Positions 46,640 to 63,828 of a DNA stretch of 64,000 nucleotides are shown one piece after another. The notes under the pieces were generated by a model. It was given only the letters and a program-made list of their open reading frames with translations, was not told where the DNA came from and made no database searches. The stretch is from Acidovorax facilis (lineage in GTDB: Bacteria; Pseudomonadota; Gammaproteobacteria; Burkholderiales; Burkholderiaceae_C). Made by a program: the position numbers and the translations under genes. Numbering within the stretch: the stretch's first letter is position 1; every line of letters begins with the position of its first letter. The DNA is taken from assembly GCF_023913775.1 (NCBI RefSeq), contig NZ_JAMXAX010000010.1:1-64000 (forward strand). The letters run 5' to 3'.

Positions 46640-47168
46640 AGTGGCCGCAGCGATGTGGAAGACCGTTGCACGCAATGGGCTGGACAGCAGCACCCTGTCC
46701 CCCCAGGACAACTGGCACCAGACCCTGTCAGACCGCTATGGGGACACCCCGGAGGTGCGCCAGAAAATGCTGCGCGCGGGCGCACGCGTGAGGGCGCAGG
46801 CCTGCACGCTGGTGCTCAACCGGATCCGCGACGGGGTGCACAAGGGACAGGGCAAAAACACAATCCACTGGTCCTTTAGGGCTCGTGGAAGGCCGCACTG
46901 CTTCGATGCTTTGCTTGTTGCCGTCCGACAAGCGTTGTACGAAGAAGGACTGGCAACGGAAACGGGCCACACACCACACAGCACGATCAGCTACTGGGCG
47001 CCAACCCGCCTGGGCCCCACCCGGATGGACCCGATTGCCTGGACCCTCGATGAACTTCTGCTGGTCGTGGGCGGCAACGGCAAAACCTACAGCTACGAAA
47101 CCATTGGCAGTTGGCCATTGCAGCCCGCACCGCCAGATCCCACCAACACACAACTGCGGCTGTTTTGA
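46596..47168 (+). CDS. 2H phosphoesterase-like protein (2'-5' RNA ligase family)
   Basis: 190 residues. RLIFVAKPPPEVAAAMWKTV opens the fold. The two H-x-[ST]-hydrophobic motifs of the 2H superfamily are present: NWHQTLSDRY (about 40-50) and TPHSTISYWAP (about 128-138). The family cuts cyclic phosphates in RNA or nucleotides. It starts 44 nt inside acnD and ends 51 nt before prpF, so it is part of the propionate operon although no link with that pathway is known. The start could be further upstream in the same frame; ATG 46596 gives the family N-terminus. Confidence 0.75.
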   Translation: MKGPRLIFVAKPPPEVAAAMWKTVARNGLDSSTLSPQDNWHQTLSDRYGDTPEVRQKMLRAGARVRAQACTLVLNRIRDGVHKGQGKNTIHWSFRARGRPHCFDALLVAVRQALYEEGLATETGHTPHSTISYWAPTRLGPTRMDPIAWTLDELLLVVGGNGKTYSYETIGSWPLQPAPPDPTNTQLRLF

Positions 47169-57415: not shown

Positions 57416-58414
57416 TCAATCTACCTTGATGTTTGCCGCCTTGATCACCTGGGCCCACTTCTCCACCTCGGCCTTCTGGAAAGCGGCGATCTGCGTGGTG
57501 TTGAGGTCGGCGGGCTCCATGCCAAAGCCCTTCAGGCGGGTCTGCATGTCGGGCTGGGCCAGGATCTTGCGGATCTCGTCATGCAGGCGCGTGACCACAG
57601 GCGTGGGCGTGCCAGCCGGCACAAAGATGGCCTGCCAGGACTGCACCTGGAAGTCCTTGAGTTCTGCCACGCCGGACTCGGCCACGGTGGGCACGTCGGG
57701 CATGGAGGCCAGGCGCTGGGGCGAGGTGACGGCAATGGCGCGCAGTTTGCCGCTCTGGATGTGCGGCGCGGCCACCACCGTGGTGTCAAACATCATGTCC
57801 ACCTGGCCGCTGATCACATCCTGGATGGCCGGGCCACTGCCTTTGTAGGGGATGTGGGTGAACTTCACGCCCGACTTGTAGGCCAGCAACTCCACCGCCA
57901 AATGCTGCGAGCTGCCTGTGCCGGCCGAGGCCGACGACAGGCCGCCTTGCTTGGCCTTCGCCCCCGCCAGCACGTCCTTGAGGGTTTTGTAAGGGCTGTT
58001 GGCCGCCACCACCAGCACGACCGGGTTGGCGCCGATCAGCGTGACGGGGCTGAAGGACTTGATGGGGTCGTAGCCCAGCTTGGGGTAGAGGCTCACGTTG
58101 ATGGCGTGCGAGCTGACGGTGCCGCCCAGCAGGGTGTAGCCATCCGGCGCAGAGCGCGCAGCAGCTTCAGAGCCGATGCTGCCCGCCGCGCCGCCCTTGT
58201 TCTCCACCACCACCGTGGTGCCCAGGGCAGTACCCAGTTGCTGGCCAATCAGCCGCGCCAGCGTGTCGGTGGTGCCACCTGCAGCAAACGGCACCATGTA
58301 GGTGATGGGCTTGCCGGTGGGCCAGGTGCCCTGGGCTGTGGCGGGCAGGCTGACAAGGGTGCTGAAGGCTGCGGCCGCCAGGGCGGCGGTGTGGATGAGG
58401 GTTCTGCGTTGCAT
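57416..58414 (-). CDS. Bug-type TTT substrate-binding protein 1
   Basis: 332 residues. A signal peptide (about 1-27, LPATAQ) exports it to the periplasm. The Bug signature is present: ITYMVPFAAGGTTDTLARLI, VVENKGGAAGSIGSEAAARS, PDGYTLLGG and SSASAGTGSSQHLAVEL. Such proteins bind a carboxylic acid for a tripartite tricarboxylate transporter, but no membrane subunits are in the window. AGGAGA lies 6 nt before the ATG. On the same strand downstream of the lactonase-type gene (103 nt), so the two may share a promoter. Confidence 0.9.
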   Translation of the reverse strand: MQRRTLIHTAALAAAAFSTLVSLPATAQGTWPTGKPITYMVPFAAGGTTDTLARLIGQQLGTALGTTVVVENKGGAAGSIGSEAAARSAPDGYTLLGGTVSSHAINVSLYPKLGYDPIKSFSPVTLIGANPVVLVVAANSPYKTLKDVLAGAKAKQGGLSSASAGTGSSQHLAVELLAYKSGVKFTHIPYKGSGPAIQDVISGQVDMMFDTTVVAAPHIQSGKLRAIAVTSPQRLASMPDVPTVAESGVAELKDFQVQSWQAIFVPAGTPTPVVTRLHDEIRKILAQPDMQTRLKGFGMEPADLNTTQIAAFQKAEVEKWAQVIKAANIKVD

Positions 58415-58516: not shown

Positions 58517-59614
58517 TCAGGGCAGATCGACGATCTCGACCCAATTGGGGTTCTTGCCCACCGGCACCCGCGTGGGCGTGCCGGGGATGCCGGTGGCCGG
58601 GTCGATGGGGTGCAGCGCAAGGTGGTGCGACTCCTGCCCTGCTGCGATCAGAAATCGGCCTGACGAATCCACCGCAAAACCGCGCGGTGATTTCTCGGTG
58701 GGCACCTGGCCCAGCGGCTGCAGCTGGCCGGTGGCAGCGTCGACGCGAAAGCTGCTCAGCGTGCTGGAGGTGCGCTCGGACGCATACAGCGTGCGGCCGT
58801 CGGGCGACAGGTGAATGTCGGCGGCCCAGGGCTTGCCGTTAAAGCCTGCGGGCAGTGCCGTGGTGCGCTGCACCGGGCGCAGCGTGCCGCGCTCCTTGTC
58901 GTAAGCCATCACGTGTACGGCGGCATCCAGCTCGTTCAGCACATACATGGTGCGCTGGGCGGTATCCCACACAAAGTGGCGCGGGCCGGATTTTTCGGGA
59001 GCAACCTGCGTCAGCGCGGGTTCATGGGCGGTGAGCCTGCCGCTCTCGGCATCAAAACGCCAGGCCGAAAGGTTGTCGCCGCCCAGGCTGGTGGCAAACA
59101 CATGGCGGTTGGCCGCATCGGCGTGGATGGCGTGCGCGTGGGGCGCCGTGGGGATGAGTTGCTGCACCGCACCCACCGAGCCGTCCTTGCCAATGCTGTT
59201 GACCGTGATCTTGTGGCCGGGGTAGGACGCGGCAAACAGCCAGCGGCCCGTGACATCGGTGTCGATGTTGGCCATGCTGTCGGCCAGCGGAGCCTCGCCC
59301 AGCTTGCGCAGCTTGCCGCTGACGGGGTCGATCGCCAGGCTCACCACCCTGAAAGGTTGCGAGCGCAACGCCACGTACAGCACCGTCTTGTCCGGGCTCA
59401 CGGCCATCGGCATGGCAGTGCCGCCCAGCGGCACGGTGTCTACCGGCTTGAGCGTGGCAGTGCTACGGTCCAGCTCCAACACCGAGACATCCTGGCTGTC
59501 CGCGTTGGCGACATACACCCAGGTTGCCGCCCAGGCGCCGGGGGTGGACAGGGCGGCAACGGCTGCCAGTGCCAGTTGTGCCACCCGGGTGCGTGTGCGT
59601 GGTGTAGAGGTCAT
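58517..59614 (-). CDS. Periplasmic lactonase-type beta-propeller protein
   Basis: 365 residues. A signal peptide (about 1-29, GAWA cut site) is followed by seven-bladed-propeller repeats in the lactonase (6-phosphogluconolactonase-like) pattern: VSVLELDRSTATLKPVDTVP, MAVSPDKTVLYVALR, ADIHLSPDGRTLYASERTSS and SPRGFAVDSSGRFLIAAGQE. The export signal shows it is not the cytosolic pentose-phosphate enzyme; it may open sugar-acid lactones in the periplasm. GGGAGA site before the ATG. Divergent from the second Bug gene, with shared operators. Confidence 0.85.
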   Translation of the reverse strand: MTSTPRTRTRVAQLALAAVAALSTPGAWAATWVYVANADSQDVSVLELDRSTATLKPVDTVPLGGTAMPMAVSPDKTVLYVALRSQPFRVVSLAIDPVSGKLRKLGEAPLADSMANIDTDVTGRWLFAASYPGHKITVNSIGKDGSVGAVQQLIPTAPHAHAIHADAANRHVFATSLGGDNLSAWRFDAESGRLTAHEPALTQVAPEKSGPRHFVWDTAQRTMYVLNELDAAVHVMAYDKERGTLRPVQRTTALPAGFNGKPWAADIHLSPDGRTLYASERTSSTLSSFRVDAATGQLQPLGQVPTEKSPRGFAVDSSGRFLIAAGQESHHLALHPIDPATGIPGTPTRVPVGKNPNWVEIVDLP

Positions 59615-59734: not shown

Positions 59735-59763
59735 GTCATACGTTATATGTTGTCGTACAACAA
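59735..59763 (-). promoter_or_regulatory. Probable sigma-70 promoter for the lactonase gene
   Basis: On the minus strand: -35 TTGTTG (59758-59763), a 17-nt spacer and -10 TATGAC (59735-59740). The -35 box lies within the palindromic operator at 59748-59762, so a bound repressor would block it. Confidence 0.5.
59748..59762. promoter_or_regulatory. Palindromic operator 1
   Basis: TGTTGT-CGT-ACAACA, perfect 6-bp arms. The related site at 59953-59972 shares TCGTACAAC. The form resembles FCD-type GntR operators (TTGTnnnACAA). Confidence 0.65.
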
Positions 59764-59933
59764 GATCTGCATTGTCACCATAAGCCTGTCTGACACACGC
59801 AGGGATTACCCGAATTTCGACGAACAATCTGCAAGGATTGCCCACCTGCCTGACAGAGGAGAAATGCGGTCAAAAAGAGCTAGTGAAAACCCTTAATCCA
59901 CCCTAAGATCACCAAAAACTCTCACGGCATGTA

Positions 59934-59962
59934 TTGCCATTTTGCAATCTTAGTTGTACGAT
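59934..59962 (+). promoter_or_regulatory. Probable sigma-70 promoter for the second Bug gene
   Basis: -35 TTGCCA (59934-59939), a 17-nt spacer and -10 TACGAT (59957-59962), 29 nt before the ATG. The -10 box lies within operator 2. Confidence 0.6.
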
Positions 59963-59972
59963 GACTAACAAC
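59953..59972. promoter_or_regulatory. Palindromic operator 2
   Basis: GTTGT-N10-ACAAC. It includes GTTGTACGA, the reverse complement of the TCGTACAAC core of operator 1. It covers the -10 box and ends 19 nt before the start codon, a typical repressor position. Confidence 0.6.
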
Positions 59973-59991: not shown

Positions 59992-60963
59992 ATGACCCTG
60001 CGCCGTAGAGCCGCCCTTCTCGCCTGCATCGCCACCCTGGCAGCGGCCTCCGCCACCGCACAAAGCGCTGACTGGCCCGCAAAGACCCTGCGCATCGTGG
60101 TGCCCTACCCGCCCGGCGGCAGCTCGGACATCATTGCCCGTTCCATCAGCCAGGCCATGTCCGAGGCGCTCAAGCAGTCGGTCATCGTGGAGAACAAGCC
60201 CGGCGCCAACGGCAACCTGGGCGCCGACTTCGTGGCCAAGGCCGAGCCCGACGGCTACACCATGCTGCTGTGCGACGTGGGTGCGCTGGCTATCAGCCCT
60301 TCGGTCTATACCAAGCTGTCGTTCGACCCCTCCAAGGACCTGCGTGGCGTGACCATGCTGGCCTACTCGCCCCACCTGCTGGTGGTGCACCCCTCGGTGC
60401 CGGTCAGCAACTTCAAGGAGCTGGTGGCGTACTCGAAGAAGAACGACCTCAACTTTGCCGTCACCGCCACCGGCAGCGCGCCCCACGTGGCCGGTGTGGC
60501 GCTGGAGCGTGCCAGCGGTGCGCGCTGGCAGTACATCCCGTACAAGGGCGGCGTCACCGCCATTCAGGACACCGTGGCCGGGCAAACCCAAATCCTGATG
60601 AACGGCATGCTGGCCACCCTGCCCCATGTGCAAAGCGGCAAGCTCAAGGTGCTGGGGGTTTCCAAAGCCACCCGCATGCCGCTGATTGGCGATGTGCCCA
60701 CCATTGCCGAGCAGGGCGTGCCCGGTTTCGAATCCGGCACCTGGCAAGGCATTCTGGTGCCGCGCGGCACGCCAGATGCGGTGGTGCAAAAGCTCAACAA
60801 CGCCTTTATCACCGCCATCCGCTCCCCCGAAATCCGCTCGCGCCTGGCCGGCCAGGGCGCCGAGGTGGTCACCATGACCCCCGCCGAACAAGACCAGTTC
60901 TTCGCCAAGGAGCGGGCCCGCTGGGCCACCGTGGTGAAGGCCGCCAACATCAAGCTCGACTAA
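59992..60963 (+). CDS. Bug-type TTT substrate-binding protein 2
   Basis: 323 residues with a signal peptide (about 1-23, ASATAQ). Bug motifs: LRIVVPYPPGGSSDIIARSI, VIVENKPGANGNLGADFVAK, PDGYTMLL and SAPHVAGVALERASG. GGAGACA precedes the ATG. It is 199 nt upstream of the 5-dehydro-4-deoxyglucarate dehydratase gene, so the bound substrate may be a hexarate or related sugar acid; this is inferred from position only. It differs clearly from the first Bug protein. Confidence 0.9.
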   Translation: MTLRRRAALLACIATLAAASATAQSADWPAKTLRIVVPYPPGGSSDIIARSISQAMSEALKQSVIVENKPGANGNLGADFVAKAEPDGYTMLLCDVGALAISPSVYTKLSFDPSKDLRGVTMLAYSPHLLVVHPSVPVSNFKELVAYSKKNDLNFAVTATGSAPHVAGVALERASGARWQYIPYKGGVTAIQDTVAGQTQILMNGMLATLPHVQSGKLKVLGVSKATRMPLIGDVPTIAEQGVPGFESGTWQGILVPRGTPDAVVQKLNNAFITAIRSPEIRSRLAGQGAEVVTMTPAEQDQFFAKERARWATVVKAANIKLD

Positions 60964-61125
60964 GAAGGTGTCAGCGAACCCCTCATGCCCGCTCATCCCG
61001 TCAAAACACGCCCGCTCGTCGTTGCAAATGCTCGCCATAGCCCGCGCTATGGCTGCGCTTTGCGCCTAGACCGGCCGCGTTTTGGCAGCCTGCTCGGACA
61101 TGCGGTATTCACTCACACCTTCTCA
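60963..61125. repeat. ~165 bp imperfect palindrome, element 2
   Basis: Fills the gap between the Bug gene and kdgD. Outer arms start AGAAGGTGT and end in ACACCTTCT. Inner hairpin: GCCATAGC (61034-61041) and GCTATGGC (61046-61053) with a 4-nt loop. The layout and centre resemble the element at 10001-10168 (GCCAATAGC centre). It may form a strong mRNA hairpin between the two genes. Confidence 0.75.
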
Positions 61126-61162: not shown

Positions 61163-62074
61163 ATGACCCCCCAAGAACTCAAAACCATCATGGGCTCCGG
61201 CCTGCTGTCGTTCCCGATCACGGACTTTGACGAGCAGGGCGAATTCCGCCCCAAGACCTATATCGAGCGCCTGGAATGGCTGGCCGCCTACGGCGCCAGC
61301 GCGCTGTTTGCCGCCGGTGGCACGGGCGAGTATTTCTCGCTGTCGGGCCCCGAGTACGGCCAGGTCATCAAGACCGCAGTGGATACCTGCCGTGGCAAGG
61401 TGCCCATCATTGCCGGTGCCGGTGGCCCCACCCGTACGGCCATTGCCCATGCGCAAGAGGCCGAGCGCCTGGGCGCCCACGGCATCCTGCTCTTGCCACA
61501 CTACCTGACCGAAGCGGGACAGGAAGGACTGATCGCCCATGTGGAGCAGGTCTGCAAGAGCGTGAAGTTCGGCGTGATCGTCTACAACCGCGACCGCACC
61601 AAGCTCACGGCCGAGTCCCTGGCCATCCTGGCCGACCGCTGCCCGAACCTGGTGGGCTTCAAGGACGGCGTGGGCAACATCGAGGTGATGTCCTCCATCT
61701 ACATGAAGATGGGCGACCGCTTTTCGTACCTGGGCGGCCTGCCCACGGCCGAGGTGTATGCGGCGGCCTACAAGGCGCTGGGCACGCCGGTGTATTCGTC
61801 GGCGGTGTTCAACTTCATCCCCCGCACGGCGATGGAGTTCTACAAGGCCGTGGCCAGTGACGACACGGCCACCCAGCACCGCTTGCTCAAATCCTTCTTC
61901 ATGCCCTACCTGGCCATCCGCAACCGCGTGGAAGGCTATGGCGTCTCCATCATCAAGGCAGGTGCCCGCATCGTGGGCCACGACGGCGGGCCGGTGCGCG
62001 CGCCGCTGACGGACTTGAAGCCCAGCGAGATGGAAGAGCTCAAGGCGCTGATCGACAAGCTCGGCCCGCAGTAA
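61163..62074 (+). CDS. kdgD: 5-dehydro-4-deoxyglucarate dehydratase
   Basis: Converts 5-keto-4-deoxy-D-glucarate to 2-oxoglutarate semialdehyde with loss of water and CO2, part of glucarate/galactarate catabolism. 303 residues of the DapA/NAL aldolase family: the Schiff-base Lys167 lies in VGFKDGVGN and Tyr141 in [19 protein letters not shown] binds the substrate carboxylate, and the [15 protein letters not shown]-terminus is typical of this branch. The in-frame stretch before 61163 is the palindrome, so ATG 61163 is chosen. A terminator follows. Confidence 0.92.
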
Positions 62075-62216: not shown

Positions 62217-62690
62217 ATGCTCAAGACCCTCATCATCGCCGCAGCCAGCGCCCTGGCCCTTGTCACGCTGAGCGGCTGCGCCAGCCATCCGACCACCGCC
62301 GCGGCGACCCCTGCACCGGCCGCCTCCGAGCAGGCTGTGGCCGCCGCTGCCGAACGCCTGCGCCTGGCCATGATCGACCCCACGCCCGCTGCGCTGACTG
62401 CCCTCGTGGCCGACGACCTGAGCTATGGCCACTCGGGCGGCCGCGTGGACACCAAGGACAGCTTCATCGGCGATCTGGTGGCGGGCAAGTCTGACTTCGT
62501 GACCATCGCCATCACCGACCAGACCATCAAGGTGGTGGGCAACTCTGCCATCGTGCGCCACACCCTCACGGCTGACACCAACGACTCGGGCAAGCCCGGC
62601 AAGGTGCAGATCAAGATACTGGGCGTGTGGCAACAGCAAGGCGGCCAGTGGAAGCTGCTGGCCCGCCAGGCCGTGCGTGTAAACACTTGA
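62217..62690 (+). CDS. Lipoprotein with NTF2-like (SnoaL/DUF4440) domain
   Basis: 157 residues. A lipobox (TLSGC, Cys about 21) predicts a lipid anchor. The mature domain (AERLRLAMIDPTPAALTALV, DDLSYGHSGGRVDTKDSFIG, IVRHTLTADTN, GVWQQQGGQWKLLARQAVRV) has the NTF2-like cone fold seen in DUF4440 proteins, which may bind a small ligand. A clear AAGGAG lies upstream. It follows the kdgD terminator, so it has its own promoter. Function unknown. Confidence 0.8.
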   Translation: MLKTLIIAAASALALVTLSGCASHPTTAAATPAPAASEQAVAAAAERLRLAMIDPTPAALTALVADDLSYGHSGGRVDTKDSFIGDLVAGKSDFVTIAITDQTIKVVGNSAIVRHTLTADTNDSGKPGKVQIKILGVWQQQGGQWKLLARQAVRVNT

Positions 62691-62859: not shown

Positions 62860-63828
62860 ATGACCACCAACGCCCAGCCCCGCATCCTGCAAATCGGCCG
62901 CCTGCCCTTGCCCGCCCTCGAAACCGAACTGGCCGCGCGCTACAGCGTGGCCTGCCTGGCGGACCAGGCCGACCCGCAGGGTTTTCTGGCGGCGCATGGG
63001 GCGGAGTTTTCGGGCGTGGTCACCACGGCGTCCATCGGGCTCACAGGCGAGGTGATCGCCGCCCTGCCCCATCTGCAGGTCATCAGCAGCTTTGGCGTGG
63101 GCTTTGACGCGCTCGACATCGGCGCCGCCACTGCCCGGGGCGTGCAGGTGGGCTACACGCCCGGCGTGCTCAACGACTGTGTGGCCGACATGGCGTTTGC
63201 GCTGATGCTGGACGTGTCGCGCGGCATTGCCGCCAGCGACCGGTTTGTGCGCCAGGGCCAATGGCCCAAGGCGCGGTTTGCGCTGGGCACGCGGGTGTCG
63301 GGCAAACGCCTGGGCATCGTGGGCATGGGCCGCATCGGCCAGGCCGTGGCCGAGCGCGCGGCGGGCTTCCGCATGGAGGTGGGCTACCACAACCGCCGCC
63401 CGGCCGAGGGCTGCGCGCACTCGTACTTCGAGTCGCTGACCGCACTGGCGCAATGGGCCGACTACCTGGTGCTGACGGTGGCGGGCGGCGCGGGCACGCG
63501 CCACCTGGTCAACCGCGATGTGCTCGACGCCCTGGGCCCGCAGGGCTACCTCATCAACGTGGCGCGTGGCAGCGTGGTGGATGAGGCGGCGCTCATCGAC
63601 GCCCTGGCCGAGCGCCGCATCGCCGGTGCGGGCCTGGACGTGTTCGACAACGAACCCCAGGTGCCCGCCGCCCTGATGGCGCTGGACAACGTGGTGCTCA
63701 CCCCCCACACCGCCAGTGCCACGCACGAAACCCGCCGTGCGATGGCGGACCTGGTGCTGGAGAACCTGCACGCGTTCTATACCTCGGGTGCCGTGCGGGT
63801 GCCGGTGCCAGGCACGGTGGCTGGCTGA
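62860..63828 (+). CDS. D-2-hydroxyacid dehydrogenase (glyoxylate/hydroxypyruvate reductase type)
   Basis: 322 residues, NAD(P)-dependent. The Rossmann motif is GIVGMGRIGQAVAERAAGF; catalytic Arg in INVARGSVVDE, Glu in DVFDNEP and His in LTPHTASATHETR; PHLQVISSFGVGFDALDI is the typical N-terminal strand. It reduces a 2-keto acid such as hydroxypyruvate or glyoxylate; the exact substrate is open. Its place after the sugar-acid genes fits tartronate/glycerate metabolism, although a terminator and a repeat separate it from kdgD. Confidence 0.87.
   Translation: MTTNAQPRILQIGRLPLPALETELAARYSVACLADQADPQGFLAAHGAEFSGVVTTASIGLTGEVIAALPHLQVISSFGVGFDALDIGAATARGVQVGYTPGVLNDCVADMAFALMLDVSRGIAASDRFVRQGQWPKARFALGTRVSGKRLGIVGMGRIGQAVAERAAGFRMEVGYHNRRPAEGCAHSYFESLTALAQWADYLVLTVAGGAGTRHLVNRDVLDALGPQGYLINVARGSVVDEAALIDALAERRIAGAGLDVFDNEPQVPAALMALDNVVLTPHTASATHETRRAMADLVLENLHAFYTSGAVRVPVPGTVAG

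Follow-up and report, generated by a model that had tools for sequence, protein, structure and literature searches.

Two predicted GguR-type operators between divergent lactonase and Bug-kdgD genes of Acidovorax facilis, and the GntR/FCD regulator that probably binds them

Two sites in the intergenic region between a lactonase gene and a Bug-type receptor gene of Acidovorax facilis very probably serve as operators for a GguR-type repressor (GntR/FCD, FadR subfamily) whose gene lies on a separate contig of the draft genome (C400). The stretch analysed, referred to here as the window, comprises 64,000 nucleotides. The motif, its four copies in the genome, its conservation, its linkage to the regulator gene and the −10 box inside site 2 are all read directly from the DNA, and Table 1 collects the features concerned. 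The wider picture of a repressor that holds sugar-acid genes in check is developed from them in the sections below.

Table 1. Features of the window and of the regulator locus on contig C400.
Feature	Position	Strand	Details
Bug/TctC solute receptor	57416..58414	minus	Pfam, 254 bits
PF10282 lactonase	58517..59614	minus	Pfam, 261 bits; signal-peptide-like N-terminus by eye
Site 1	59742..59761	minus	GTTGTACGACAACATATAAC; class A core; predicted GguR-type operator facing the lactonase gene; zero-mismatch match
Candidate lactonase −10, GACAAT	59771..59776	minus	just upstream of site 1
Second conserved palindrome, CAGGGATTACCCGA	59800..59813		about 25 bp upstream of the candidate lactonase −10
−35 TTGCCA, Bug-kdgD promoter	59934..59939	plus	17 bp from the −10; TTG here in 26/26
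Site 2	59953..59972	plus	GTTGTACGATGACTAACAAC; class B core; predicted GguR-type operator facing the Bug-kdgD operon; zero-mismatch match
−10 TACGAT	59957..59962	plus	inside site 2; kept in 26/26
Second Bug/TctC solute receptor, the first gene to follow site 2	59992..60963	plus	Pfam, 224 bits
KdgD, 5-dehydro-4-deoxyglucarate dehydratase	61163..62074	plus	TIGR03249, 430 bits (cut-off 374)
DUF4440 protein	62217..62690	plus	Pfam; lipoprotein-like by eye; order kept in L148
D-isomer-specific 2-hydroxyacid dehydrogenase	62860..63828	plus	Pfam; order kept in L148
GntR/FCD regulator gene	C400:23586-24314 (L016:9587-10315)		242-residue protein; flanked by two perfect motif copies
Uronate dehydrogenase (Udh)	C400 gene row		similarity to PDB 6mfh and 3rft, E 9e-90 and 8e-86
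SMP-30 family protein	C400 gene row		Pfam
TRAP receptor DctP	C400 gene row		matches 4mhf at 8.6e-135
DctQ-like and DctM-like genes	C400 gene row		named by eye
Galactarate dehydratase (GarD)	C400 gene row		above model cut-off

Form of the Two Sites

Both sites lie between the minus-strand lactonase gene and the plus-strand second Bug gene, and each reads toward the gene that it faces. The first-pass annotation had described two matching palindromes here, one with a 3-base centre (TGTTGTCGTACAACA, 59748-59762) and one with a 10-base centre (within GTTGTACGATGACTAACAAC, 59953-59972), sharing TCGTACAAC in opposite orientation. The shared TCGTACAAC is indeed present in both, oppositely oriented, and the sites are real and conserved; the division into two kinds of palindrome did not hold. 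Placed in register, sites 1 and 2 are identical in form, GTTGT-N3-AYRAC-N2-AYRAC, a single element of three half-sites: the N3 palindrome corresponds to half-sites 1 and 2 of site 1, and the N10 palindrome to half-sites 1 and 3 of site 2. The core of site 1 carries GT-N3-AC (GTTGTACGACAAC) and that of site 2 carries GT-N3-AT (GTTGTACGATGAC); passages of PMC4494728 describe GT and AC as typically 3 nt apart in palindromes of the FadR subfamily. By their second half, sites of this form fall into class A, with ACAAC as in site 1, and class B, with ATGAC as in site 2.

The third half-site is one-sided and oriented, along the transcription of the controlled gene. AYRAC stands two bases past the core in 61 of 77 representative sites, these being kept from 118 distinct sites at loci fetched by protein (L039-L118, 80 loci), and it occurs 0 to 4 times at other offsets from 0 to 12 and once at the mirror position. 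The representatives exclude sites with flanks that differ at less than half of 60 positions, and their centre was required to be A/T, C/T and G in that order, which drops CAG, CTG and CGG centres; counts over all sites also take in L119-L159, most of which were fetched by the three-half-site pattern itself. In the parts of Suvorova et al. 2015 (PMC4494728) that bear on this point, 13 FadR-subfamily groups have a weaker additional half-site 7-12 nt from the palindrome centre, its role being left open. The third box described here is alike, being centred 11 nt from the core centre, and fits the additional half-sites described for GntR-family palindromes, but it stands on one side only, at one offset in 61/77 and oriented with transcription.

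A variant operator with a CAG, CTG or CGG centre (for example GTTGTCAGACAAC) was seen near regulator homologues of about 49-67% identity, at L116, L117, L131, L142 and L147 and in matches such as G082:C33:330088, hinting that the operator centre drifts along with the regulator.

Frequency and Conservation of the Motif

The window holds three copies of GTTGTACGA where 0.08 would be expected, and none of 100 shuffles reached three; the third copy, at 46934, was rejected as no extended site surrounds it. GTTGT-N10-ACAAC occurs once (0.04 expected; one copy in 4 of 100 shuffles), and TGTTGTNNNACAACA has five matches, a single perfect one included, when up to two mismatches are allowed (1.35 expected). 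The draft genome (6.42 Mb in 415 contigs) shows no enrichment of the short core TTGTNNNACAA, which stands at 25 places while its reversed control stands at 75; it was discarded as a genome-wide finder.

The three-half-site pattern has four perfect matches in the genome, against one for its reversed control; these are the two window sites and two sites on contig C400, with none elsewhere in the genome. Since the control outnumbers the real pattern at two mismatches (146 against 31 matches), only perfect matches are informative, and because the pattern was written from those same four sites, its weight rests on relatives. Among 200 genomes of the family, three of them from the genus and the strain's own included, it matches 122 times in 67 genomes, against 16 times in 14 for the reversed control. 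A perfect match is found in 37 of 47 genomes of the genus and is absent from the other 10.

Conservation in relatives, on which the earlier reading of the palindromes had been staked, is borne out at the locus itself. Site 1 with at most two mismatches and site 2 with at most one are kept in 26 of 26 genus loci that retain the lactonase orthologue, a set made up of the lactonase matches of at least 84% identity among 35 listed, with the strain's own included and some near-identical; the remaining nine listed matches, at 45-48% identity, were left out. The intergenic DNA around the conserved sites is otherwise diverged among these genomes.

Divergent Site Pairs and Their Spacing

Divergent pairs of sites recur in relatives. 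In other genera they lie between kdgD and Bug-garD genes (L069 with L150, apparently one locus; L152; L153) or between garD and Bug genes (L151), and elsewhere in the same genus between Bug-kdgD and lactonase-Bug (L148, L149). The first-pass annotation had suggested that a spacing of about 200 bp would allow looping. In that case regulator molecules bound at both sites would hold about 190 bp of DNA in a loop. The recurrence of such pairs in several genera would favour this arrangement, as would a distance of 189-193 in 21 of the 26 genus genomes. The distance is, however, 251-272 in the other five and 176, 141, 132 and 134 in four loci of other genera, and a common helical phase is absent over the 13 distinct distances (R 0.21, p about 0.56), so that the suggestion finds no backing in the relatives. 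Each site also has its own promoter, and a separate operator for either of the divergent promoters is explanation enough for the pair; looping we consider unlikely.

Promoter Layout

TTG at −19 together with TACGAT is found in 26 of 26 genus genomes (own included), and site 2 therefore contains the −10 box of the Bug-kdgD promoter. The placement of an operator over the −10 of a plus-strand promoter, as drawn from the first reading of the sequence, thus stands. A generic promoter scan picks out TTGCCA-17-TACGAT here, its one match in 401 bases against 0.4 expected, which is weak alone. Class B sites with an ACG centre contain TACGAT. Of 71 class B representatives, 27 have TTG at a distance of 18-20 bases upstream, compared with 1 of 39 in class A (16/49 against 1/25 in the protein-selected set alone).

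The minus-strand promoter fared otherwise. An operator over its −35 had been proposed, with TATGAC as the −10; this box, at +21, is present in only one of the 26 genomes, the window's own, and a looser TAnnnY at +20 to +22 in four, and the promoter as drawn was rejected. A candidate −10 lies on the other side of site 1 (Table 1), where NANAAT begins between −17 and −12 from the site in 26/26 genomes and at exactly −15 in 19/26; no good −35 for the lactonase promoter was seen. Site 1 itself most likely lies over the region where lactonase transcription begins.

The positions of both sites suit repression. A regulator that activates, or both activates and represses, is distinctly unlikely, even though the −35 of site 2 promoters varies beyond TTG among relatives (by eye) and the lactonase promoter, with no good −35 seen, may need help. 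Against this, in 26/26 genomes site 2 overlaps the −10 and site 1 follows the likely −10 of the lactonase promoter, which are typical positions for repression, and a separate GGG-N4-CCC box sits where an activator could bind.

A Second Palindrome Upstream of Site 1

All 26 genus genomes have GGG-N4-CCC in the 60 bases upstream of site 1, and similar boxes are found upstream of other sites in the same regulon. Among 6-mers upstream of 128 representative sites, AGGGAT was found at 23 against 1 in a control stretch and AATCCC at 20 against 1; these counts were not designed after viewing the sequences, and 25 of the loci were lactonase loci from a single genus. A GGG-W4-CCC score of at least 8.5, designed after looking at the sequences, was reached by 31 of 87 representatives and 3 of 87 control stretches. 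The palindrome suggests a second regulator, and an activator box is a possible reading of it.

Genome-wide, AGGGWTWACCC has 26 matches (L220-L245) at 20 distinct places, against one for the reversed control, and is perhaps the box of a broader regulator. Several of its copies stand shortly before genes that appear unrelated by eye, among them genes for a Bug receptor, a transporter, and LysR-like and LacI-like proteins.

The Regulator and Its Linkage to the Motif

A single regulator, likely of the GntR/FCD type and encoded outside the window, had been predicted for a sugar-acid regulon, with a genome search for similar sites near sugar-acid genes and a GntR gene as the proposed check. That search was run, and its sequence evidence supports both expectations: two of the four perfect sites flank a GntR/FCD gene on C400, whose product scores 76.7 bits for GntR and 97.2 bits for FCD, both above the cut-offs, and beside the four sites stand genes for KdgD and GarD, both above cut-off, and for Udh by similarity. 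One C400 copy sits between the regulator gene and the divergent uronate-dehydrogenase gene row; the other precedes an aldehyde dehydrogenase gene whose best NCBIfam model, alpha-ketoglutaric semialdehyde dehydrogenase, is below its cut-off, as the uronate dehydrogenase is for its own NCBIfam model. Passages of PMC7660916 identify the structure 4mhf, matched by the TRAP receptor of this row, as Bpro_3107 from Polaromonas JS666 and describe it as binding glucuronate and galacturonate. Taken together, the C400 row and the KdgD of the window would form part of the oxidative uronate/aldarate pathway, whose genes are divided between two loci with four predicted operators in common.

Among lactonases, UxuL and UxuF are of the SMP-30 and PF10282 families. 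The window lactonase reaches 313 bits against the NCBIfam 6-phosphogluconolactonase model, below the cut-off of 370. The signal-peptide-like stretch seen by eye at its start (59530-59614, minus strand) means that it may act outside the cytoplasm; an extracytoplasmic lactonase is an odd partner for the uronate dehydrogenase, which is without such a start. On the other side of the sites, the DUF4440 gene probably belongs to the Bug-kdgD operon and the D-isomer-specific 2-hydroxyacid dehydrogenase gene possibly does. The stretch at 61046-61066, in the gap between Bug and kdgD, is an interspersed repeat inside the operon, with a 21-base core of which the genome holds 15 copies at up to two mismatches (five of them perfect) and none for the reversed control.

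The genome has ten FCD matches, and the assignment of the regulator therefore rests on linkage and co-occurrence. A homologue of at least 200 bits occurs in 93 of the 200 family genomes: it is found in 66 of the 67 genomes with the motif against 27 of the 133 motif-free ones (Fisher p 1.4e-29, with related genomes treated as independent and homologues below about 150 bits not entered). The 67th motif genome has a partial regulator match, the perfect motif is absent from 27 family genomes that have a homologue, and 5 of the 14 genomes matched by the reversed control carry one. In the same 200 genomes, 87 of the 122 sites lie within 1.5 kb of a regulator homologue. At 80 named regulator loci, the best 80 of 143 found by a regulator protein search in Acidovorax and relatives, GTTGT-N3-AYRAC was found within 3 kb in 66 and was absent from that distance in 14.

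The ten FCD matches leave room for a different owner of the window sites, with the C400 regulator recognising a merely related motif, and motifs of the FadR subfamily do resemble each other; according to parts of PMC12288454, IR1 of E. coli DgoR also holds TTGTAGTACAA. Such a regulator is nevertheless very unlikely, given that all four perfect sites of the genome stand at two loci in the same 20-base form, that the predicted pathway is divided across just those loci, and that motif and homologue keep company in 66/67 genomes. That the palindromes are chance or promoter by-products with no bound regulator, as the unenriched short core TTGTNNNACAA might be taken to mean, is scarcely credible beside their conservation in 26/26 loci within otherwise diverged intergenic DNA and their linkage to the regulator gene.

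Relation to Known Systems

GguR itself carries an FCD domain. In passages of PMC5507952, GguR of Halomonas is a GntR-family regulator of galactarate/glucarate genes with TctABC and, in one Halomonas strain, also of Udh, Gli, Gci and a TRAP transporter. The regulon proposed here resembles what those passages describe in its GntR-family regulator (with both GntR and FCD above cut-offs) and in its hexuronate and galactarate/glucarate targets with TRAP or TctC-type transport (Udh, GarD, KdgD, DctP and Bug); it differs in having SMP-30 and PF10282 lactonases with GarD where Gli and Gci are named for Halomonas. A section of PMC8376909, citing Bouvier et al. 2019 (doi 10.1128/JB.00431-18), uses as control a DNA fragment with the GguR binding site of Polaromonas sp. 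JS666. On its other strand that insert reads AGGTTGTCTGATGACTG, that is GTTGT-N3-ATGAC, and this core is common to both systems, whereas the centre is ACG or ATG here and CTG in the insert as given there, and the third half-site falls outside its 17 bases. A search of 399 family genomes for the exact 17-base Polaromonas site gave no match. The two window sites are most likely a GguR-type operator pair of a known kind of regulon, the type being assigned by likeness of core and targets.

DgoR of E. coli, in the portion of PMC12288454 that describes it, is likewise a FadR-subfamily sugar-acid repressor with TTGT-N3-ACAA-like repeats overlapping a promoter; it has two close repeats at one promoter and D-galactonate as effector, whereas here one site stands at each divergent promoter.

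Proposed Control and Perspectives

From this arrangement we infer the binding itself, repression and not activation, an inducer, and the use of the third half-site. The regulator would bind GTTGT-N3-AYRAC, aided by the third half-site AYRAC two bases beyond. When no inducer is present it would sit over the −10 for Bug-kdgD and over the start region for the lactonase; at its own locus its place would be before the uronate-dehydrogenase operon and the aldehyde dehydrogenase gene. A uronate, aldarate or aldarolactone may then release it, so that the oxidative uronate/aldarate pathway would be induced as a whole. The predicted repressor would in this way keep genes for the breakdown of uronates and aldarates (pectin-sugar breakdown) off until they are required.

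A further proposal is more tentative, and we hold it at somewhat less than even confidence: GguR-type operators would be oriented elements of three half-sites occupied by more than one dimer, and would come in two designs, one whose core supplies the −10 TACGAT and one lying just downstream of a separate −10. The two-base difference between the designs would exist because the first doubles as promoter, and a second factor at GGG-N4-CCC would add activation. If this is true, the regulon answers to two signals.

The control system looks like the known GguR one, here with a precise promoter layout, including a clear case of an operator that carries the −10 box of its promoter, together with a conserved third half-site. 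Once the lactonase/Bug/KdgD locus and the uronate locus, which lies on a different contig, are connected, the split oxidative pathway of the genus becomes readable as one regulon. The oriented third half-site, the operator doubling as −10 and the second conserved palindrome provide a fine structure on which to build.
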